A DNA stretch of 47,352 nt. Origin: Methanospirillum stamsii. Lineage in GTDB: Archaea > Halobacteriota > Methanomicrobia > Methanomicrobiales > Methanospirillaceae. Made by a program: the position numbers and the translations under genes. How positions within the stretch are numbered: the first letter of the stretch is position 1; the number at the start of each line of letters is the position of its first letter. The notes under the pieces were generated by a model. That model did not search any database. It worked only from the letters and a program-made list of their open reading frames with translations, and was not told the origin of the DNA. Below, piece after piece: positions 6,473 through 47,352 of the stretch. The stretch is from contig NZ_QGMZ01000049.1 of the NCBI RefSeq assembly GCF_003173335.1, positions 1 to 47,352 on the forward strand, read 5' to 3'.

Positions 6473-8602
6473 ATGCGTCGGCTGGTGACAGGTAACGATG
6501 ACCAGAATCGCTGGATTTGTTTCATACTGGCTATTACTATCATTGTTTTTTCAATCGTCTGGTATGCTTTGTCCAGGGATATTCATGTTGTCATATCTCA
6601 CCTGCTCTATATTCCGGTTATTTTAGCCTGTTACCGGTTTCCCATCCCAGGTCTTATTTTCACTCTCGTAATAATTGGTGGTTATCTGGGTTTTGAAGCG
6701 AATATTTCTGATAATTACCAGATTACTCTTGACGCTCTCTTACGCGGGGTAATGATCTTCATCATCGGCGGGGTTGTAACCTACCTTTCATTGTATCTCC
6801 GGTTTCGGGAGAAAAGTTATCTGCGCCTTCTTTCCAATGTCGATACCGGGGTTCTGGTAACAAATAAGGATGGCATCATCCTGTACGCAAATCCCTATGC
6901 TCATGGTGTACTGGACCGCAGAGACAGTAGTGTTGTCGGGATGTCACTTGAAAATTTTGCACAGGATAAAAAAGAGCTGGCCGATTATCTCTTGTCATGC
7001 CTCTCATCTGATACCCGTGCATCTGTCACAGAATTAAACCTGAAAAGAAAAGACGGTTTTTTTGTTCCGGTTATGATTGTTGGGTATTGTGAAAAGCAGG
7101 AGGACGTCATTCTCACCATCACTGATCTTTCTGAAGAGAAATGGATGGCCCATGAACTGGCTACCGGAAAGGTGGTCCTAAAAACACTTCTTGATGCCAT
7201 TTCTGAAGGAGTATTCCTGTCTGATACCTTTGGAAAAATTATCAGTATTAATAAATCATGTCGGGAAATTGCCGGATGGGAAGAGGGCATGGATATCAGT
7301 CAGAAGACCGGATTTTTCGAAGACCGTGTCTATGAGGAACTAAAAAAGGCTGTTTCCCGGTGTGTTCTTGAAAAAATTCCCCTGACTCTCTATCTGGATT
7401 CTGATACCAGTCCATCTAATCGTTACTATGAATTAATCCTGACTCCGGTTCCTGATGATGGGGGTGCAACAACCCGGGTTGCCGGAGTCATCCATGATAT
7501 CACTGATCAGGAAAATTACCTGAACAAGATAAAGGAACGAGAGGAGTATCTTCGCCTGGTTCTGGACGGCCTTCCACTTGCAACGATTGTAATCGATCCT
7601 TCACACAAGGTCATGTCTGTAAACCAGGCACTTTCCATGCTTTTTGAACAGGATGTTCTGAACCTCATTGGAACATCTGATCATGGCAATCTTCTTTATC
7701 CGGCAAAAGAACGTCCCATGCTTGCAGACCTTCTGGTGAATGAGGATGTGGACATTTTGCTTGAAGAAAATTATGGGGGTCTTTTTTCATCTTCTCCAAC
7801 CGTGCCCGGAGCATACGAAGTCATTGATTTTTATCCTCACATCGGTGATGAGGGTAAATGGATCCGGAGCACTGCAGCCCGGCTGGTTGATGAAAACGGG
7901 GTGACTATTGGTGCAATTGAGACATTTGAAGATTTTTCAACCCAGAAACAGGCAGAAGAAATAATCCGGATAAGCGAGGAACGGTTTAAGATTGCATCTC
8001 ATATCGCAACAGATCTCATATTTGAATATGAACAGGTCACTGACAGGATTTCCTGGTTTGGAGATATCGACAAATGGCTTGGCCTTGAATCACCCGGAAG
8101 GGTTAGTACTCTTACCGGCTGGGTCACGCTTATCCATCAGGATGATGTCGACCGTATCAGGAATTCATTTATCCAGCATGTTCTCTCCGGAGATCCAATC
8201 AGTGAAGAACTTCGGATAAAACACCGGAATGGTCAGTACCAGACCTGGGTGATAAAAGCAGTTGCACTCTATAATGCCCAGTTCCAGCAGATAAAAACGA
8301 TTGGAGTTGTATCAGACATCAGTGAGATGCGGGCAAATGAGGAGGCAAAAAAGAAAGCTCTTGTTGCCATAGAAAAATATATCGAGCAGTTTGCAATCCT
8401 TGGTGATCATATCCGAAATCCTCTGCAGGTGATTGCCGGGTATAATGATCTTCAGAGTGGAGAATACAAGGAAAAAATAGCACTCCAGATATCCCATGTG
8501 AACCGGATTGTTGATCAGCTTGACAGGGGATGGATTGAATCAGAAAGTATCAGGGATTTTCTTCGCAGGCATTATGGTATTTCAGAAAACGAAAAATTCT
8601 AA
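6473..8602 (+). CDS. membrane multi-PAS sensor with DHp-like end, no ATPase domain
   Basis: The 709-residue sensor has four hydrophobic segments in the first 110 residues (from WICFILAITIIVF to IGGVVTYLSLYL), then about four PAS modules (roughly 118-220, 230-350, 362-490 and 500-620). The last 80 residues resemble a histidine-kinase dimerisation helix pair with DHIRNPLQVI, where His is the possible phosphoacceptor. The protein then ends: no N, G1 or G2 box of a HATPase domain is present, and the stop is followed 13 bp later by a convergent gene. It therefore either relies on another kinase in trans or signals without phosphorylation. The ligand is unknown. It lies alone between Pelota and the nuclease gene. 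Confidence 0.85.
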   Translation: MRRLVTGNDDQNRWICFILAITIIVFSIVWYALSRDIHVVISHLLYIPVILACYRFPIPGLIFTLVIIGGYLGFEANISDNYQITLDALLRGVMIFIIGGVVTYLSLYLRFREKSYLRLLSNVDTGVLVTNKDGIILYANPYAHGVLDRRDSSVVGMSLENFAQDKKELADYLLSCLSSDTRASVTELNLKRKDGFFVPVMIVGYCEKQEDVILTITDLSEEKWMAHELATGKVVLKTLLDAISEGVFLSDTFGKIISINKSCREIAGWEEGMDISQKTGFFEDRVYEELKKAVSRCVLEKIPLTLYLDSDTSPSNRYYELILTPVPDDGGATTRVAGVIHDITDQENYLNKIKEREEYLRLVLDGLPLATIVIDPSHKVMSVNQALSMLFEQDVLNLIGTSDHGNLLYPAKERPMLADLLVNEDVDILLEENYGGLFSSSPTVPGAYEVIDFYPHIGDEGKWIRSTAARLVDENGVTIGAIETFEDFSTQKQAEEIIRISEERFKIASHIATDLIFEYEQVTDRISWFGDIDKWLGLESPGRVSTLTGWVTLIHQDDVDRIRNSFIQHVLSGDPISEELRIKHRNGQYQTWVIKAVALYNAQFQQIKTIGVVSDISEMRANEEAKKKALVAIEKYIEQFAILGDHIRNPLQVIAGYNDLQSGEYKEKIALQISHVNRIVDQLDRGWIESESIRDFLRRHYGISENEKF

Positions 8603-8615
8603 GGTGTTCTGATAT

Positions 8616-9410
8616 CTATGGAAATTTTAACGTCAGGGTTACCGGACAGTGATCAGAACCTCCTATATCACTGCGAATTCCTGCCATTGAAATATTGTCT
8701 CGCAATTTTGAACTGACAAAGAAGTAGTCGATTCTCCATCCGACATTTCTCATTCTCGCCCTGGTTTTATAATCCCACCAGCTGTACTGGTTTCCTTCCT
8801 TTGAAAAAAGTCTGAAACTGTCAATAAATCCGGCCGCGATAACCTTATCAATCCAGTCCCGTTCAATCTGCAAAAATCCGGATACCTGTTCATTCTCTTT
8901 TGGTCGTGCAAGGTCTAAGGGCATGTGAGCGGTATTGACATCCCCACAGAAAATAACCTTTTCACCTTTATCTTCTATCTCGAGAATTTTCTTCAGGAAT
9001 GCATCATAAAATTTTAGTTTAAATGATAGTCTCTCTTCTGATGCACCGCCATTTGGAAAATAGACGTTCAGAAGGGTGAATTCAGGGTATCGTGCAGTAA
9101 TTATTCTGCCTTCCCTGTCAAACTCAGGTTCAAGGCCACCAAACTCCAATGAATCCGGTTCAGTTTTTGTATAGATGGCAACCCCGCTGTATCCTTTCCG
9201 TTCAGCTGGGTTGATGTAAAAAAAGTAACCGGGGATTCGCGATACTGCAGGTGTCAGGGTTTTGACATCCGCTTTTGTCTCCTGCAGACAGAGGATATCC
9301 GGATTTTCTTTTGATAAAAATTCATGAAACGGGACACCGGGAAGGACTTCTTTTCCACTGACTGCCCGGATGCCATTGACATTCCACGAGAAAAGATGAA
9401 GCTCTTTCAT
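8616..9410 (-). CDS. xthA: exodeoxyribonuclease III / AP endonuclease
   Basis: This 264-residue enzyme of the exonuclease-endonuclease-phosphatase fold cleaves DNA at abasic sites in base excision repair. The pattern is complete: SWNVNGIRAV at the N terminus, LCLQETKAD (metal-binding Glu) near residue 41, a GYSGVAIYTK block, a CGDVNTAH block with catalytic Asp and Asn, NVGWRIDYFFVS, and the final GSDHCPV with the catalytic Asp-His pair. Length is typical for the ExoA/Xth group. It follows a TIM-barrel gene by 9 bp on the same strand, which suggests an operon. Confidence is high for the family and good for the reaction. Confidence 0.95.
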   Translation of the reverse strand: MKELHLFSWNVNGIRAVSGKEVLPGVPFHEFLSKENPDILCLQETKADVKTLTPAVSRIPGYFFYINPAERKGYSGVAIYTKTEPDSLEFGGLEPEFDREGRIITARYPEFTLLNVYFPNGGASEERLSFKLKFYDAFLKKILEIEDKGEKVIFCGDVNTAHMPLDLARPKENEQVSGFLQIERDWIDKVIAAGFIDSFRLFSKEGNQYSWWDYKTRARMRNVGWRIDYFFVSSKLRDNISMAGIRSDIGGSDHCPVTLTLKFP

Positions 9411-9419
9411 GTTATCCGA

Positions 9420-10142
9420 TTATCCGATTCCAAATCTCCTGAGAGCAATCAGGGTGTTATGAGCTGACCTGAATGAAGGAACATCAATGATACCCCGTGC
9501 TCCGTTAGCAAACATCCCTGTAGCAACCTGGTCAAAATGTATGGACCCCCGTCCGATTTCCAAGTGTTCCTCTGAAAACTCCCTGCAGTCATACAGGTAA
9601 AAAGCCCTGCTGGCCGCCTCATGCAAAAATTTCGGAAGACATCCGTTTACATGGGCATGACCGATATCAAGAGCAAGCGGGATCTGGGACATACGATTCA
9701 GATCTTCTGGATGTCGGACCATGTTTCCTGAATAACGTCCCATATTCCTGAACAGGAATCGTATCCCGTATTCATCCGCCGATCGAAGGAGGTCAGTACA
9801 TGACCGTGCAAGTTGCCGTTTTGCATGTAAGAGATCAGATCCTGCTGACACAAATCCCGGATCCACGACAACTTCAGCATTTATCTCTGATGCCAGTTGA
9901 AACCGTTCATTGATAACGGAAACAGCAGCCTGCCGTACTGGTTCCAGAATGCTGGCCAGGTTAATATCCCGGTGTGGCAGCCTTATCATGTACTGATATG
10001 GGAATGATTCAAGGAGGCTAACCGCTGGAATCCGGTGAGCACCCATGTCAACTATCTCTACCCCCCTGGTTAGTGAACCAAGGCTTTCAAGAGCAATTTC
10101 TAGCGGTGTATCCCGCATACAGGTTGTGGAAATCCAGAGCAT
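9420..10142 (-). CDS. xylose isomerase-like TIM barrel protein
   Basis: The 240-residue protein shows the AP-endonuclease-2 / sugar-phosphate isomerase barrel pattern: EIVDMGAHRIP near the N terminus, EVVVDPGFVS at mid-length, a LFRNMGRYSG strand where the family often has ENM, LALDIGHAHVNG with the DxGH metal site, and a late YLYDCREFSEEHLEIGRGSIHF strand. The EIGRG signature matches family members that bind divalent metal. It is slightly short for the family. The pairing with the ExoIII gene downstream (9 bp) would fit DNA repair, but sugar isomerase relatives are equally possible, so no substrate is assigned. Confidence 0.75.
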   Translation of the reverse strand: MLWISTTCMRDTPLEIALESLGSLTRGVEIVDMGAHRIPAVSLLESFPYQYMIRLPHRDINLASILEPVRQAAVSVINERFQLASEINAEVVVDPGFVSAGSDLLHAKRQLARSCTDLLRSADEYGIRFLFRNMGRYSGNMVRHPEDLNRMSQIPLALDIGHAHVNGCLPKFLHEAASRAFYLYDCREFSEEHLEIGRGSIHFDQVATGMFANGARGIIDVPSFRSAHNTLIALRRFGIG

Positions 10143-40250: not shown

Positions 40251-40324
40251 GGGCTTATGGTCTAGGTGGTTATGACACCGCCTTTACACGGCGGAGGTCG
40301 CCGGTTCGAATCCGGCTGGGCCCA
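40251..40324 (+). tRNA. tRNA-Val (anticodon UAC)
   Basis: The 74-base gene folds as a full cloverleaf. The acceptor GGGCTTA pairs with TGGGCCC with two G-U pairs; the anticodon stem is CCGCC/GGCGG around the loop TTTACAC, giving anticodon UAC (valine, GUA); the T stem is GCCGG/CCGGC with TTCGAAT in the loop. The discriminator is A and CCA is not encoded. No intron is seen. A T-rich stretch CCTTCTTTT follows directly. The last 42 bases recur in decayed form at 47231-47272. Confidence 0.96.
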
Positions 40325-40430
40325 TCCTTCTTTTAATATCACTTTATTATCCGGGAAAAATAAAATCTCTGATGTAAATCCTGGGATTATGGGTGAGAAG
40401 TATTAATTATTCTAAAAATAATTATCCTTA

Positions 40431-41098: not shown

Positions 41099-41788
41099 AT
41101 GAAACTCACACAAATAACCGGAATATTTCTCATTATATGTCTGTTCCTGGTAACAATCACAACGGCAGAAAGCGATAACCCAGCAAAAGATTTTACCGGA
41201 ACATGGACTGATGCAAATTATACCTTTACCATTGTTCAGGAAGGATCAGACATTATATTGACCGGAATTCCGGTCGATGAGGAATCGTATTTTCCAATGA
41301 AACTTACCGGAATGGAATCAGACAACAAAACCCGTCTGGTCACCAATAAGAACATGACTGGAACAATGGAAATTGAGATGTCTGAAGATCAGATGGAACT
41401 TTTCGGAATCCAGACCTTTGATCCGGTCAATCCATTAGAAACGCCATTTATCATTGACTACAACTCCACCCGGAATGGGACAGAAGTACAGAGCGATGCG
41501 GTCTGGTCCGGGGAATGGATTGTGGACAATATGGTTATGACGCTCTTTCAGACCGGTGAAGAGATATCCGGGTTTTTTAATGTTATCAATGAGCCGGAGT
41601 CGAAAGTGTATGTGAACGGATCTGTCTCTGATGATGGAAGAAATATCTCACTTAACTGGACTTTTGCAGAATATGTGAACTTTACCCTGTCAGATGACGG
41701 TATGAATCTTATCGACGAAGCATGCATGAATGGAGAGGGGAAAGAGGGTTATCTCTGTTTGAATCTTCAAAAGCAGGTACAGGAGTGA
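41099..41788 (+). CDS. secreted protein with two similar beta domains
   Basis: The start at 41099 (229 residues) opens a signal peptide, MKLTQITGIFLIICLF, ending near TTAES; earlier in-frame codons do not look like a signal. The mature protein has two related halves: DFTGTWTDANYTFTIVQEGSDIILTG (near 35) and WSGEWIVDNMVMTLFQTGEEISGFF (near 140), each a W-x-(T/V)-x-(N)-(Y/M) type opening and a later xGxx pattern, so an internal duplication. No family is recognised. Its 3' end and the sequence after it recur in degraded form at 46032-46198. Confidence 0.75.
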   Translation: MKLTQITGIFLIICLFLVTITTAESDNPAKDFTGTWTDANYTFTIVQEGSDIILTGIPVDEESYFPMKLTGMESDNKTRLVTNKNMTGTMEIEMSEDQMELFGIQTFDPVNPLETPFIIDYNSTRNGTEVQSDAVWSGEWIVDNMVMTLFQTGEEISGFFNVINEPESKVYVNGSVSDDGRNISLNWTFAEYVNFTLSDDGMNLIDEACMNGEGKEGYLCLNLQKQVQE

Positions 41789-41881
41789 GATCTGAGAAAT
41801 ATCCGGAGTCCGGATAGAAATTTACCGATACAGGGGTAATTCAGGTCTTTGATATCCTCTGTGAGTTTTGGCAGAAAAAAT

Positions 41882-41927
41882 CAACGAGTATCAAGGTTGG
41901 TTGAAAAATTTCATCCAACTCTCGTTG
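41882..41927 (+). repeat. extended imperfect hairpin before the AAA nuclease gene
   Basis: CAACGAG, then GTTGG and TGAAA, are mirrored by TTTCA, CCAAC and CTCGTTG, giving 17 paired bases with one 7-base bulge on the left arm (TATCAAG) and single-base asymmetries. The hairpin ends 64 bases before the ATG and lies before the TATA box, so it is DNA-level structure or an upstream terminator and not part of that gene's mRNA. Confidence 0.75.
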
Positions 41928-41948
41928 CTGGCTTTTAACCGATTAATC

Positions 41949-41958
41949 TATAATAAAA
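41949..41958 (+). promoter_or_regulatory. TATA box candidate for the AAA nuclease gene
   Basis: TATAATAAAA lies 34-43 bases before the ATG, with a T/A-rich context. Predicted transcription starts near 41980, giving a leader of about 12 bases. Confidence 0.45.
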
Positions 41959-41991
41959 GATATCATCACACATATCTCATTACTGAATACG

Positions 41992-43575
41992 ATGCGGTTT
42001 TTCAACACTGCCGGACCTATTAACTGCCAGGATCATTATTGCCTGCCCCCATTGTCTCGTTTCGATCTCAATGAAATTCTCTCTTTAATTGACCAAAAAA
42101 AATACTTTGTTCTTCATGCACCACGGCAGACCGGGAAGACCTCATGTCTCTTAGCCCTTCGTGATTCTCTGAACCAGCAAGGAAGATATGCTGTCCTCTA
42201 TGTTAATGTTGAAATGGGACAGACAGCCAGAGGAGATGTCAGCAGGGGGATGAAGGCAATCCTCAGTGAGCTAACCTATCAGGCAGAACGGACATTGGGG
42301 GAGAGCACATTCCAGAACAGGATATCGGAGATTATTACAGAATCCGGAGAAGATACCGCACTGAAGAGCGTTTTGTCCGGCCTGTGTCAAAGACTGAATC
42401 TGCCTCTTGTTCTCTGTATTGATGAAGTTGATGCTCTCGTTGGTGATACGCTGATCTCACTTCTCCGTCAGATACGGGCCGGATATGCTGACAGGCCGAC
42501 CGGGTTTCCAGTCTCAATAATTCTCTGCGGTGTACGTGATGTCCGAGATTACCGCATCCACTCGGACCGGCAGCAGGAGATAATCACCGGGGGAAGTGCC
42601 TTTAACATTAAAGCCGAATCACTCCGGCTTGGTAATTTTTCTGAAGAAGAGACAAGGACTCTTCTCATGCAACATACCTCAGAAACTGGTCAGGTGTTTG
42701 AGACGGAGGCTCTGTCAGCCATATGGAATTTGACAAAAGGACAGCCCTGGTTGGTGAATGCTCTTGCATATGAAGCCTGTTTTAAACTGGAACAGGGAAA
42801 AGATCGGAAAAATTCCATAACTCATAATCTGATCATAGAAGCCAAAGAACAACTTATTCGCAGGCGTGATACTCATCTCGACCAACTTGCAGATAAACTC
42901 AAAGAAGAGCGGGTTCGAAGGGTTATCGAACCGATGCTCACAGGTGAGGTCTTTGAACAGGATTTCAGATCTGATGATGTCGGATATCTGGTTGATCTAG
43001 GTCTTATTACTCAGGAGTTGAACGGGGCTATCCGGATTGCAAACCCGATATACCAGGAGATAATACCCCGGGAACTGAGCTGGGGAGCACAGACCGGAAT
43101 GACTATTGAGACTGCCTGGTATGTTGCTCCGAACGGAAGACTCCTCCTTTCAAAACTTCTTAGTGCATTTGTCCAGTTTTATCGGGAACATTCCGGAAGC
43201 TGGCTGGAGATTGCCAAATATAAAGAGGCAGGACCACACCTGCTGCTCCAGGCATTCCTTCAACGGATTGTGAACGGAGGCGGGCAGATAACATGGGAAT
43301 ATGGCCTTGGTATGGGGAGGACTGATCTCTTTATCCTCTGGCATCTCCCGGACGGAGCCGGGCAGCGTTTCGTTATTGAATGTAAGGTGCAGCGGGACTC
43401 ACGGGAAAGAACGATTGAAATCGGGCTTAATCAGGTCATCAGGTATGCTGATACCTGTGGAGCAGATGAAGTGTACCTTGTTCTCTTTGATCCGGCTGAA
43501 AAAACATGGGAAAAGAAGATTTTTACCGAAACAGTGGTGAAAGACGGAATTTCAGTTGAGATATTCGGGATGTAA
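41992..43575 (+). CDS. AAA+ ATPase with C-terminal PD-(D/E)XK-like domain
   Basis: The 527-residue protein has an ATPase half (about 1-300): Walker A HAPRQTGKTS near residue 43 and Walker B LVLCIDEVDAL near 145, followed by a winged-helix-like part (about 290-360). The last 110 residues resemble a PD-(D/E)XK nuclease: GRTDLFILW (Asp), FVIECKVQRD (Glu-x-Lys) and a late YLVLFDPAEK. This architecture belongs to a group of archaeal and bacterial ATPase/nuclease proteins that have often been linked to mobile or defence loci; activity is not known. It has its own promoter, behind a long hairpin. Confidence 0.85.
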   Translation: MRFFNTAGPINCQDHYCLPPLSRFDLNEILSLIDQKKYFVLHAPRQTGKTSCLLALRDSLNQQGRYAVLYVNVEMGQTARGDVSRGMKAILSELTYQAERTLGESTFQNRISEIITESGEDTALKSVLSGLCQRLNLPLVLCIDEVDALVGDTLISLLRQIRAGYADRPTGFPVSIILCGVRDVRDYRIHSDRQQEIITGGSAFNIKAESLRLGNFSEEETRTLLMQHTSETGQVFETEALSAIWNLTKGQPWLVNALAYEACFKLEQGKDRKNSITHNLIIEAKEQLIRRRDTHLDQLADKLKEERVRRVIEPMLTGEVFEQDFRSDDVGYLVDLGLITQELNGAIRIANPIYQEIIPRELSWGAQTGMTIETAWYVAPNGRLLLSKLLSAFVQFYREHSGSWLEIAKYKEAGPHLLLQAFLQRIVNGGGQITWEYGLGMGRTDLFILWHLPDGAGQRFVIECKVQRDSRERTIEIGLNQVIRYADTCGADEVYLVLFDPAEKTWEKKIFTETVVKDGISVEIFGM

Positions 43576-43776
43576 ATAATTATTAAAAAGGTTGGGCTCA
43601 ATTCCGGATCGAATAATATAATTTTATTGAATTTATCTCTGATTAGTGGCAATGGATAAGCATGCGGTCAGTTCTTTTCCAAATCTAATTCGTTTTATTT
43701 TAGGTGACAGAGATATGATTCATTATTCAGATTATTGAAGAGTGGATCTCCTTTCCAGTTGTGTAATTATGTTAGA

Positions 43777-44177
43777 TCACGAATGAAACTCCTGATTTTT
43801 GATGAATTCAGCGGGCGTCATTACAATGATATCATCCGGAAAGTGCCTGGTATTTCCTGTAATAAGTGGTACCTTGCTATGATATGCCAGTTCATAAAAA
43901 GGCCTGTCAGAAGGGTCAGGAAGGTTTTTCAAAACTGGAGGGGGGACTATCCATAATCCTTCATGTTTAACGAATGAGAGCAGAGCATTCACATCATCCG
44001 GAGAAAACCAAACCCGGGCCTTTTCAGAACCACATCGTATTCATGAAAAACCCTGCTGTACAGTATGATTCGAACGGTTCAGGCAATTATCATCCGGACT
44101 ATTGTTGCAGGATTTCCATGGGGGTTTAAGAGTCCTGAAACCAGAACATTTGTATCAATGACGATGATATCATTCAT
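43777..44177 (-). pseudogene. broken PIN-domain toxin gene
   Basis: Read from the ATG at 44177 on the minus strand, the product starts with IIVIDTNVLVSGLLNPHGNP, a PIN domain opening, then meets TGA after 32 codons. Beyond it, in the same frame, RIILYSRVFHEYDVVLKRPGFG continues the fold. A one-base shift near 44000 is needed to read FSPDDVNALLSFVKHEG and GNTRHFP, which end the domain at 43777. The total of 401 bases (133.7 codons) fits an original PIN toxin of about 134 residues with one base lost. The start overlaps the antitoxin stop by 8 bp. Confidence 0.85.
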
Positions 44178-44454
44178 GAATCATCTCATTTCTGACTTCA
44201 TGAATTTCTTCATTAATATCAGATAATTTCAGTTTATCTAAACCTGATTTTTTACTTTTCTCCCACATATGCTCAATTGCCTGTTCAGCTCGTAATCTCC
44301 GGATAAGGTCAAGTACTTCTTCAGGTTCTCCGTTAATTGAGATTGAAATGACTTTTGGTTTTCCATTCACCGTGATGATGGTATCTTTATCTTCGCCCTC
44401 TTTCCATAACAATGCAGGATTTGATTTGAGTTCAGCTGAAGAAATATATCTCAT
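44170..44454 (-). CDS. Phd/YefM-like antitoxin
   Basis: The 94-residue protein opens with MRYISSAELKSNPALLWKEG and ITVNGKPKVISISINGE, the pattern of Phd-type DNA-binding antitoxins, followed by a charged helical tail (EEVLDLIRRLRAEQAIEHMWE) that would bind a toxin. It precedes the PIN gene on the same strand with an 8-bp overlap. The toxin is broken, so this is either an orphan antitoxin or still works on another toxin. Confidence 0.85.
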   Translation of the reverse strand: MRYISSAELKSNPALLWKEGEDKDTIITVNGKPKVISISINGEPEEVLDLIRRLRAEQAIEHMWEKSKKSGLDKLKLSDINEEIHEVRNEMIHE

Positions 44455-44612
44455 ACTCTATCCGATAATTGATCACATAATATATCTTCTTTATCCTCTC
44501 TTTTGTGATAATAACCAAAACTTGGGAGTGAATATCATCACGAATCGTATCAATTCTCCTCAAAATTTAATTTTATCAAAAAATTTGGGCCTATTTAGCA
44601 ATCCAAGAGTCC

Positions 44613-44639
44613 GTAGCACTTGTAACACTTGTAGCAGTT
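44613..44639 (+). repeat. three tandem 9-mers (iteron-like)
   Basis: GTAGCACTT, GTAACACTT and GTAGCAGTT follow each other without spacer. They share an 11-base stretch CACTTGTAACA, exact at 44617-44627, with the second cluster read on the opposite strand. Confidence 0.75.
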
Positions 44640-44875
44640 CCTATGGAGAGGCCCCGGAAATTTTTTTAATGATATTTCTCTCTAATCGGATTAGAAAATT
44701 TTTTTCGCCCTCGTTCTTATGTATTGGTATATTAGAAAAAATGATGTAAATCCCATCTCGAAATATCTATATTTCGGTCTGAATATTATAATTTGCATCT
44801 ATTTGAAAATTACACTTTATAATTAACCGAATTGCTATAGACGATTAAAAAAACCCAGGTGTGTTCATTATAATT

Positions 44876-44902
44876 GTTACAAGTGTTAAAACTGTTAAAA
44901 AC
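44876..44902 (+). repeat. three tandem 9-mers, opposite orientation
   Basis: GTTACAAGT, GTTAAAACT and GTTAAAAAC are tandem. The minus strand of the first unit region reads CACTTGTAACA, matching the first cluster exactly over 11 bases. Confidence 0.7.
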
Positions 44903-45037
44903 GAATAAAATTGCTGTATCGGCTTAATTGGGGCGACATATTCTGATTGAAGGTCATATTATGATTTTATTGGAAGACAAGTTCCGGAAAATATCCTGAT
45001 GTTACTTTTATTTGATACACTTCAAATGCAATATTAC

Positions 45038-45409
45038 TTAAACTGACTCACTCCACTGAATAATTTCTGTGGCTATCTCTATTGCTTCTTCTGTTTTCAG
45101 GGTATCCGGAATTGTATCATCATACCTGGCTTTTACTGCATAGGGATTGAGAAGAGCAATGGTGTCACTTTCTATCGGTAATGATAATGATAGATCCTGA
45201 ATTAATTCAGTAAGTTCAACAAGGTCATGTATCTTCCGGATGAGGACTCCTTTCTTAATTAGGATAGATTTTAGAGCTTTTTCTACTGTTTGTTGGGCAT
45301 GAAAACAGATGATTGGAGAAGGGCCATCCATTTCATACAGTAGTTTTGCAGCAAGAAGGTCTGCATGAGCAAGACGGATTAATAATGCACTTTCTTCATC
45401 CACACTCAT
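45038..45409 (-). CDS. HEPN domain toxin-like protein
   Basis: The 123-residue helical protein has CFHAQQTVEKALKSILIKKGVLIRKIHDLVEL near residue 35 (the helix and the R-x-x-H motif near IRKIHDL) and LNPYAVKARYDD near 88, which are hallmarks of HEPN proteins of HEPN/MNT modules. It overlaps the MNT gene by 14 bp on the same strand. In characterised pairs HEPN acts as an RNase toxin and the MNT partner blocks it by adding nucleotides; here this is inferred by homology. Both reading frames appear intact. Confidence 0.9.
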   Translation of the reverse strand: MSVDEESALLIRLAHADLLAAKLLYEMDGPSPIICFHAQQTVEKALKSILIKKGVLIRKIHDLVELTELIQDLSLSLPIESDTIALLNPYAVKARYDDTIPDTLKTEEAIEIATEIIQWSESV

Positions 45410-45725
45410 ACAGTACCTTTCCTTCAGACAGGGCCCAATATAATACTGTTCCCGGTACCGGGTTTAGGGTTTTCTCCGTAGCATATACCATAATATCAAT
45501 CCCTACACCAGGAGCTATTCTTCCGGCGGCTTTTCGGAGCCTGACCATTTCCATTCCCTGATGTTTCACAGTATCCTCAATAACCATGATATCAACATCT
45601 GAATCCGGTGTCTCTTCTCCACGAGCATATGAACCAAAAAGAATGATTTTTCTGGGATTTGCAGCCTCAATAATCCGTGTCACAACCTTTTGGATATCTT
45701 CCATGGTTACTTGTAATTGTTCCAT
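45396..45725 (-). CDS. MNT nucleotidyltransferase antitoxin
   Basis: The 109-residue protein has the minimal nucleotidyltransferase pattern: IILFGSYARGEETPDSDVDIMV near residue 25, with the GSxxRG and the DxD metal pair, followed by a C-terminal MVYATEKTLNPVPG region. It is the upstream gene of the HEPN/MNT unit. Length is normal. It is preceded by about 580 bp with no gene on the same strand, so its own promoter should be in that gap. Confidence 0.92.
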   Translation of the reverse strand: MEQLQVTMEDIQKVVTRIIEAANPRKIILFGSYARGEETPDSDVDIMVIEDTVKHQGMEMVRLRKAAGRIAPGVGIDIMVYATEKTLNPVPGTVLYWALSEGKVLYECG

Positions 45726-46304
45726 ACGTCACTCCGAATTTTATTGAGTACCTTTTAGTCCATGAATCATATTGGAATGGGAGAGGTAATTATCTGTTTT
45801 TTTAATTAAAGAATCTAGTCTTCCGGGGGTATTAACTGGTGTAGTATCTTCATGAACAAATAAAAAATCGTTCGAGGTTGTTGGTTAATTGCTTGTGTAC
45901 TACACACAATTATTAGGGATGTTAATTACAACCGGTATATAGTGATTTTCCATAAATTATCAATGTGTAAATCATGATCACATGAGAAAACCGGTATATT
46001 TAGGTTCATAAATACCGAATTTCGATACTCATTTGTAGATGATACCGTGACTGCAATAGATAAAAAATCTTTTTCAGAGCGTGATATCTGCTTGAATCTT
46101 CAGAAGCAGGTAAAAGAGTGAGGTCTAGTTTACCTAATTCCAGAGTACTGGTGGAGACAGATACTGGTGTTAATCCAGTCTTTAATATCCTCTATGAGCC
46201 GATCAGATTCAGGCGTGCTATTTTTGCAGAAAAAAATCGATTAGTTAAATTTGAAGTGTACTATTATGAGCACAGACAATTTTGAAGAACCTCAAAACAA
46301 AAGA
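45726..46304. other. 579-bp gap: gene remnant and short repeats
   Basis: No complete gene was found. The gap holds the degraded second copy of the secreted protein's 3' end (46032-46198) and two direct copies of AACCGGTATAT (45930-45940 and 45989-45999). These could be TATA/BRE elements. TTGTGT and ACACAA nearby (about 45892-45909) form a weak inverted repeat. Confidence 0.6.
46032..46198 (+). pseudogene. truncated copy of the 3' end of the secreted-protein gene
   Basis: Codons 46032-46121 end in ICLNLQKQVKE then TGA, which matches the end LCLNLQKQVQE of the gene at 41099-41788. The 35 bases from 46092 differ at 4 positions from those at 41759. A second matching block after the stop, GTCTTTAATATCCTCTATGAG (46178) against GTCTTTGATATCCTCTGTGAG (41845), lies exactly 86 bases further in both copies. 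The coding part before 46032 is lost. Confidence 0.8.
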
Positions 46305-46813
46305 TTATCCCGGGCTCCAAATCGTAAAACCGGGTATTCTCGAAAAATCGGAATCACGTGTGGCAATATGGTGGATATCATTTTCAATTCCGGATGCAAC
46401 AACAGAAGCATCAGCAGCCATTAACGGAAATTTGCGGAGAATTTGAACCTGTTTTTTTATCACATTCTCGGAGTAATCAAGCAATTGAATATGAACAGAT
46501 AACAGGGTATCAACAAGTTCCCAGGTTCTAGAAAAAAATTTTTCTTCTATTTTTTGATGTTTTAAAACATTCAGGGCTTTTATCCTACTAATTGAATTAT
46601 CATGCTCCATAATCTCTGCAATCATCAGACGATGGATAAACTCATTTAATACGATGGCAGGAATAAATAAAGTTATTTCCTGTTTTATCCCTTTCATTAT
46701 AAAATTTGTACATTCCTCTCCATACTCTGGATGTGATCTAATGCCCAATAGATGAGAATGTTTGTATCTACCAGACACCATGTATCTGATGGAATATCCT
46801 GTAATTTATTCAA
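46305..46813 (-). pseudogene. frameshifted PIN-domain toxin gene
   Basis: From a TTG at 46813 the minus strand codes DTWCLVDTNILIYWALDH, the start of a PIN domain with the catalytic DTN, but it runs to a stop near 46697. The next frame continues directly with KGIKQEITLFIPAIVLNEF (catalytic Glu), LMAADASVVASG (Asp) and HHIATRDSDF (Asp), ending at 46305. The total of 509 bases (169.7 codons) needs a single-base shift near 46700. The reading that starts with MVSGRY is an artefact of the shift. All four acidic residues survive, so the lesion may be recent, or a sequencing error. Confidence 0.85.
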
Positions 46814-46973: not shown

Positions 46974-47352
46974 TCCACTTTACAAAGGATAAGGTTACTG
47001 TTATCGATTGAGCAATTTTTTTTGGAAAATGAATGCAGTTGTTCGATATCTGTTGTATTTTTTGTGGATAATTAAATATTAGGGATAGTATGGAATCTGA
47101 TAGAGGAATAATAAATTTTTCATTTCTATCCTACCTTCTTTGTATCAGGTTCTGATAAGAAAGCATGAATCAAATCTAGGTTTATACCTTCAAATTCTCT
47201 CTATCTCTCAAAATAGGCGGATTTAAGTGATTTACTAGACGGGAGTCGCTGGTTCGAATCCGGTTGGGCTCATTAATATCTTCCTTTTCGGCTCATCGCT
47301 ACTTTGAGTGGGTAATTACAAAACCATAAGGGGAAAATCAAGGGTGGGGGTG
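46974..47352. other. end of window: tRNA remnant, otherwise no gene seen
   Basis: No open reading frame with family signal was found. The region is AT-rich and contains the partial tRNA-Val copy at 47231-47272. Confidence 0.6.
47231..47272 (+). repeat. degenerate copy of the tRNA-Val 3' part (att-like)
   Basis: TTTAC at 47231 to GGGCTCA at 47272 matches bases 33-74 of the tRNA-Val gene at 34 of 42 positions. It begins at the anticodon loop and ends exactly at the discriminator base. The 11 bases TTCGAATCCGG are unchanged, and three of the differences are C to T. No 5' half is present. Confidence 0.8.

Follow-up and report, generated by a model that had tools for sequence, protein, structure and literature searches.

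A multi-copy family of predicted AAA+ ATPase–PD-(D/E)XK nuclease proteins with an exchanged cassette between Walker A and Walker B, represented in Methanospirillum stamsii

The window, meaning the whole stretch of 47,352 nucleotides analysed from Methanospirillum stamsii, comes from the genome designated G000 and carries at 41992–43575, on the forward strand as all features below unless stated, a genuine open reading frame of 527 amino acids, where the preliminary description had placed a gene. Its Pfam matches and structure models point to an AAA+/STAND-like ATPase with a C-terminal PD-(D/E)XK nuclease. Two Pfam families score over their cut-offs, AAA_22 (1.2e-8) and AAA_35 (1.2e-7), and three lie under them, ATPase_2, AAA-ATPase_like (PF09820) and PDDEXK_9 (PF08011; 0.0015); a search of solved structures by sequence returned one insignificant match. 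In an alignment of 49 relatives, for which 48 of the 79 listed loci were tried, the family shows the N-terminal motif FNTAGPxNxxxHYCLPPL, the Walker A motif APRQTGKT (residues 43–50, 42118–42141), with G48 and T50 invariant and K49 nearly invariant, and the Walker B motif LVLCIDEVD (residues 139–147, 42406–42432), with D144, E145 and D147 invariant. Both Walker motifs had been described as intact, which is true of Walker B, but Walker A retains GKT with its leading glycine changed to alanine.

A Walker A together with a Walker B bearing an adjacent acidic pair is the arrangement of STAND-type ATPases. In addition, the stretch GQPWLVNA (residues 250–257, 42739–42762), with G250, Q251, P252 and W253 invariant in the 49 relatives, is presumably the GxP motif of these ATPases, its GQP (250–252) preceding a putative winged-helix-like segment at about residues 294–350 (42871–43041), where the model places helices at 294–302, 306–317 and 327–336 and strands at 339–341 and 347–349. 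The full-length AlphaFold2 model, built on the 49 aligned sequences, has a mean pLDDT of 82. When residues 1–370 are compared with the PDB, archaeal STAND ATPases lead the list, 2qen at Z 20.4 with 312 residues aligned at rmsd 3.7 and 2fna at Z 18.3; Orc2, plant NLRs and CED-4 follow (Z 15–16), and the transposition ATPases TnsC and MuB come next (Z 14–15). The fold is also similar to those of Cdc6/Orc and RuvB. The matches to archaeal STAND ATPases and CED-4/NLRs extend to residue 359–370, so that the predicted model has the nucleotide-binding, helical and winged-helix succession of archaeal STAND ATPases and CED-4. A repeat-rich sensor domain, as the C-terminal repeats of Avs/NLR type, is absent from the full-length model, where the nuclease stands instead.

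Regarding this nuclease, its core spans residues 413–527 (43228–43572), and the C-terminal Asp and Glu-x-Lys residues noticed earlier, D445, E463 and K465, are present and, together with Q481, invariant in the 49 relatives. The ATPase filled the match list in the first full-length PDB comparison, and for this reason the C-terminal 148 residues were modelled separately, with a pLDDT of 89. A plain Foldseek search with this model gave nothing under E 0.001, the N-terminal domain of YqgP and gelsolins ranking top. A second structural aligner placed CinB of Wolbachia (Z 8.7), BamHI (7.8) and McrC (7.3) ahead of BstYI, BglII and EcoT38I, and ranks 1–14, drawn from CinB/CidB and these enzymes, are all, as we take them to be, PD-(D/E)XK enzymes; their Z-scores of 6.7–8.7 are modest, as 7–8 is given by the tool as the typical best for models without a clear match. 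The nuclease fold, whose confirmation the preliminary description had proposed as a check, is thus borne out by the nuclease-only and full-length models, since the order of secondary-structure elements fits PD-(D/E)XK, the four residues are invariant and all of the first 14 ranks belong to this superfamily. As modelled, the window protein is a STAND-like AAA+ ATPase fused to a C-terminal PD-(D/E)XK nuclease, and the members of its family are probably ATP-driven proteins cutting DNA.

Upstream of the gene, the hairpin of 17 pairs (7+6+4) at 41882–41927 ends 64 nt before the ATG, exactly as first reported. It had been considered the gene's recognition or control site, a reading favoured by the real stem and its position, but the folding is ordinary: its z-score against shuffles is −2.2, shuffling the 132-nt stretch 200 times gives equally good folding in 6 cases, and folding at least as good is found at 58 other distinct places of the + strand in the window (50-nt windows). 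The proposed survey of its recurrence, run with the stretch 41866–41943 against 21 genomes, found the window itself only, the next best match being 17 nt (E 0.03). Moreover, similarity to the copy in the relative G001 reaches only 47 nt upstream of the start codon, leaving the hairpin outside. A conserved element or shared recognition site is ruled out by these results, and a control site of this gene keeps next to no probability. The 47 nt shared with G001 (41945–41991) form a putative promoter-proximal block that contains, 34–43 nt upstream of the start, a TATA-like stretch, in agreement with the TATA box previously noted; a 3' tail at 43576–43742 is likewise common to both copies.

The surrounding gene order is the same in G001, namely tRNA-Val, the neighbouring 255-aa gene and the family gene, with about 2.4 kb extra between the last two. 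Similarity to the copy L032 breaks off abruptly on both sides, 47 nt ahead of the gene and 167 nt beyond it, which raised the suspicion of a transposed unit; this was dropped because of the shared order in G001, and the mobility proposed for this copy was not borne out. The locus had also been called tRNA-bounded, which holds on the left, where the tRNA-Val at 40251–40324 is real, and fails on the right, where the element at 47231–47273 is called neither by ARAGORN nor by Rfam. The latter is a 43-nt 3' half of tRNA-Val (81% identical to 40283–40325), possibly the remnant of an old attachment site of an island starting at the tRNA. The stretch 41743–41865, comprising a 3' gene end and intergenic sequence, is repeated about 4.3 kb downstream at 46076–46198 (79–84% identical), and directly before this second copy 45986–46090 matches positions 845–949 of contig C71 in G000, adjoining a region (C71:906–3070) which in G001 follows the family gene; this pattern indicates that the island has been rearranged. 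On the − strand, 44170–46781 holds a toxin-antitoxin-like cluster with a weak Phd/YefM match, a HEPN and nucleotidyltransferase pair and a PIN protein, of which 43797–44488 recurs in G001 (800723–801415) at another distance.

The family is multi-copy and often decayed to fragments. The window's own genome carries four copies; 13 of 101 relatives have a match (up to 15 in the richest, pieces included), as do 11 of 135 genomes of the class that are at least 90% complete, two of them (G036 and G153) with only pieces of 36–52 residues, the two genome sets overlapping. Beyond the class, a scan of GTDB contigs gave at least 545 relatives, and 66 of the 79 loci kept from it have bacterial record titles, with identities of 53–76%. 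A site that flanks a conserved gene and is equivalent to that of copy L035 is occupied by a copy in G003 and G006 and by a remnant in G001; in G000 it is a gap of about 100 bp without matching ends. The coding sequences of L035 and L021 share 92% identity and their flanks show no similarity, and shared units end near the coding sequence in several copy pairs; terminal inverted repeats and target duplications were searched by eye among the compared copies, with none convincing. A second copy or fragment lies near 12 of the 79 related loci within the fetched flanks of at most 5 kb. No match was found in 50,697 phage records, and 15 of 72,556 plasmid records match, all under 60% identity and 11 under cyanobacterial genus names. 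One copy on a contig labelled as a Bacillota MAG (L054) has identities of 0.96, 0.68, 0.82 and 0.82 to the archaeal L046 in start, cassette, middle and nuclease, reflecting either a recent transfer or a mis-binned contig. Between two near-tandem copies, L102 encodes at 8555–9523 (− strand) a 323-aa protein with no Pfam match at 1e-4, which by eye resembles an Rpn-type nuclease/putative transposase.

The conservation of the family proteins is uneven. In an alignment of 25 copies (of 27, two being left out because of interrupting stops), conservation extends over the start, both Walker motifs and the nuclease core but breaks down at residues ~81–135. The core of this hypervariable cassette, residues 84–135 (42241–42396), has the lowest identity in the protein and a length of 51–52 amino acids in 70 aligned sequences, with a mildly acidic mean net charge of −1.9; in the model it follows strand 2 and precedes Walker B, with helices at 83–102, 111–118 and 123–134. 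As seen in tandem copies, a longer tract is replaced, corresponding in the window to about residues 60–172 (42169–42507). In the pair L033, from a complete single-contig relative, the nucleotide identity is 0.870 over residues 1–59, 0.498 over 60–170 and 0.993 from 171 to the end, and in the pair L049, from the window's own genome (tract 62–178), it is 0.842, 0.479 and 0.926 for start, tract and rest. The bacterial pair L084a/b from Thiodictyon behaves alike, with 0.98, 0.53, 0.93 and 0.96 in start, cassette, middle and nuclease, and in the reverse case, L040/L042, the start and cassette are each 0.95 identical and the nuclease part 0.58. A frameshift artefact is ruled out, as the directly aligned nucleotides of the cassette cores in four swapped pairs are 0.55–0.69 identical, about the level of codon-shuffled sequences (0.62–0.65).

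The same is seen across the collection, where pair counts use 97 of 108 sequences after removing 10 duplicates and one 99% orthologue. Among 27 pairs with middle and nuclease at 0.80 or more, the cassette falls below 0.60 in 14 and below 0.45 in six; conversely, five of the 11 pairs with cassettes at 0.85 or more have diverged below 0.75 elsewhere, and in the 31 pairs whose rest exceeds 0.80, every 76-residue segment outside the cassette stays at 0.55 or above. AU tests, which took 39 of the 97 sequences, give a mixed picture. Residues 180–527 reject the cassette-supported clade of L040, L042 and L026 (3e-93); with the cassette alone, joining the pair in one clade is rejected for L045/L046 (1.4e-7) and L084a/b (0.038) but not for L033 (0.071) or L049 (0.257), pairs in which one or both cassettes are without a close relative in the set. 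The window copy itself and its G001 counterpart show no swap, and the cassettes of the tandem pair L087a/b, a counter-example, are 0.99 identical. Judging from these comparisons, the uneven conservation reflects cassette exchange, beyond mere fast change. In five close pairs with measurable divergence, the cassette dN/dS is 0.10–0.22, indicating purifying selection; hence the cassette types seem to be of old origin and maintained in function, passing between copies instead of changing by mutation.

The closest relatives by architecture belong to DUF1703, considered here as a sister family, whose domains and fold, including those of a Methanospirillum protein, were assigned by Knizewski et al. 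2007 (PMC1913061). The window protein falls short of both Pfam gathering cut-offs of DUF1703 (16.7 vs 26.1 bits for PF09820 and 18.9 vs 25.5 for PF08011), and at E ≤ 0.001 these match 13 and three of the 49 family sequences, respectively. Classical DUF1703 genes outnumber the window-gene family in the same genomes: counting pieces, PF09820 matches 17 times in G000, 29 times in G003 and 10 times in G001. Both families share the domain order, a similar length and a multi-copy expansion with intragenic recombination, the latter described by Siozios et al. 2019 as frequent among 25 DUF1703 paralogues of Cardinium (PMC6387759). They differ in Walker A, RPRRFGKS in DUF1703 and APRQTGKT in the window protein, and in the N-terminal motif and sub-cut-off Pfam scores of the latter.

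Swapping between the two Walker motifs also occurs in DUF1703. From 52 extracted copies, 46 were kept after duplicate removal, and the neighbours L143/L147 of G001, a single-contig genome, have nucleotide identities of 0.985 over residues 1–88, 0.498 over 89–195 and 0.966 thereafter; with Walker A at 44 and Walker B at 148, the swapped part occupies the same structural site as the cassette. Six close pairs were profiled: the others differ at residues 229–388, at 338–399 or over the first 293–322, and L152/L167 has no identity step. Since the steps differ among pairs, more than one module moves. The part of Siozios et al. 2019 used here (PMC6387759) covers recombination among DUF1703 paralogues, with no localisation to the cassette site found in it, and it still calls the role of DUF1703 unclear; in the literature searched, no description of a hypervariable cassette was found.

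A role in defence, for which the gene had been put forward as a candidate, is plausible, resting on the architecture and the swapped cassette. Against it, PADLOC 2.0 gave the window protein nothing better than a partial hit at E 0.017, which is no match to a model, and five relatives had no match up to E 0.01. Likewise, a recurring defence neighbour is wanting: among 94 neighbouring proteins scanned, of 213 listed ORFs, no PADLOC family matches more than three, judged by the best 25 of 154 matched families, and no neighbour family is found in more than five of the 94, among the families listed. When the neighbours alone are scanned, single ones do match defence models, such as DpdE, DpdF, ZorD and a type II methyltransferase, among others, and in two Thiodictyon MAGs (L084 and L106) two family copies flank a McrB-like and McrC-like gene pair; these are counted for defence together with the architecture, the patchiness and the repertoire-like variation. 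As PF09820 is the ATPase of the sister family, its listing in a review table among the domains of RADAR RdrA, PARIS1 and Old-tin is also counted for defence (PMC10952713).

The explanation that we favour, with a confidence somewhat short of even, is that of an NLR-like sensor-nuclease whose specificity is set by the cassette, each genome holding a repertoire used against viruses and plasmids. A trigger would bind through the cassette, upon which the STAND-type ATPase would bind or turn over ATP and then switch, probably oligomerising or otherwise assembling; the assembly would license the fused PD-(D/E)XK nuclease, and nucleic acid would be cut. The genes form a birth-and-death family, exchanging a cassette of about 52 residues by recombination with motor and nuclease kept, and a small repertoire of specificities per genome would be deployed in conflicts with viruses or plasmids. 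This mechanism is modelled on STAND proteins and AAA+-driven nucleases. The trigger of each copy is most likely determined by its cassette, because this is exchanged while the motor and nuclease are kept. In other AAA+ proteins the equivalent stretch holds substrate-contacting elements, such as the pore loop and the initiator-specific motif, which makes a recognition role natural, and its mildly acidic character favours a protein, not DNA, as the partner. Some observations count against this sensor-nuclease reading, namely the slow cassette evolution within close pairs, unlike an arms race by point mutation, the mixed AU tests, the alike cassettes of L087a/b, the TnsC/MuB likeness of the ATPase, the modest nuclease Z-scores and the lack of a repeat sensor.

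The family could instead be selfish, its nuclease nicking or breaking DNA at or near paralogues and its copies spreading by gene conversion and duplication with no host benefit. The many copies and decayed fragments, the clustering of second copies or fragments at some loci, the dissimilar flanks of L035 and L021, the want of a constant neighbour family, the TnsC and MuB matches and the intragenic recombination of DUF1703 in Cardinium (PMC6387759) would all suit it. What speaks against it is the synteny of the window copy with G001, the want of terminal repeats or target duplications on inspection by eye, and the strong purifying selection on the coding sequence, cassette included. Spread alone, besides, leaves unexplained why a middle part is replaced with both sides kept, and we consider this selfish origin rather unlikely, if a serious competitor. 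For the swapping itself, a cassette that senses nothing and only prevents mixed oligomers of paralogues would predict the same exchange pattern as a sensor. Such an assembly-specificity element would fit the mutually dissimilar cassettes (0.26–0.37) of the four copies in the window's own genome, and the constant length and negative net charge would fit contact with protein rather than DNA. Against it, like cassettes do coexist, as three copies in G020 keep nearly the same one (0.87–0.95), one of them differing elsewhere, and in other AAA+ families the equivalent region faces the substrate side of the ring; we regard it as improbable. A housekeeping enzyme of chromosomal maintenance or repair, to which the likeness to Cdc6/Orc and RuvB might point, is contradicted by the patchy distribution, with no match in 124 of the 135 well-assembled genomes of the class, among them G004 and G008 of the same genus, and has a very slight probability; paralogues conserved as housekeeping genes at fixed sites, named in the preliminary description as a result that would speak against a defence or mobility gene, are accordingly not what the class shows.

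Compared with known systems, the sensor-nuclease proposed here resembles the STAND/NLR modules (2qen, 2fna, CED-4 and plant NLRs) in its nucleotide-binding, helical and winged-helix domains (Z 15–20), its Walker B with DE and its GxP motif; it differs in having a C-terminal PD-(D/E)XK nuclease as effector, in lacking a repeat sensor and in a hypervariability that, in the family, lies inside the nucleotide-binding domain. As in McrBC, an AAA+ motor would work with a PD-(D/E)XK nuclease, and the nuclease model has McrC as one of its best matches. McrBC, however, consists of two proteins and is a GTPase, whereas the window protein is one chain, and the McrBC-type pair of Thiodictyon is encoded by genes separate from the two family copies flanking it. 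Type I restriction specificity subunits, which change by shuffling of target-recognition domains, offer an analogy, since one module exchanged between conserved frames may give new specificities; no homology is claimed, and the module of the window family sits in the motor.

More broadly, and with less confidence than for the sensor-nuclease itself, we tentatively propose that an exchangeable cassette conferring specificity is built into the motor of two related AAA+/PD-(D/E)XK families of archaea and bacteria, in the position through which initiator ATPases and translocases touch their substrates, and that its swapping may diversify repertoires of sensor-nucleases as a prokaryotic counterpart of the diversification of NLRs and restriction specificity. 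The cassette offers a way to approach the variation among copies and, if it is a sensor, these proteins would constitute an uncatalogued and widespread immune repertoire in archaea and bacteria, of a scale suggested by the relatives obtained from that one GTDB scan. A second exchange zone is also seen in DUF1703 of the window's own genome, where the loci L171, L172 and L173 are arrays of two or three DUF1703 genes whose C-terminal part is 95–98% identical in DNA, the differences being located at residues 229–388 or over the first 293–322.
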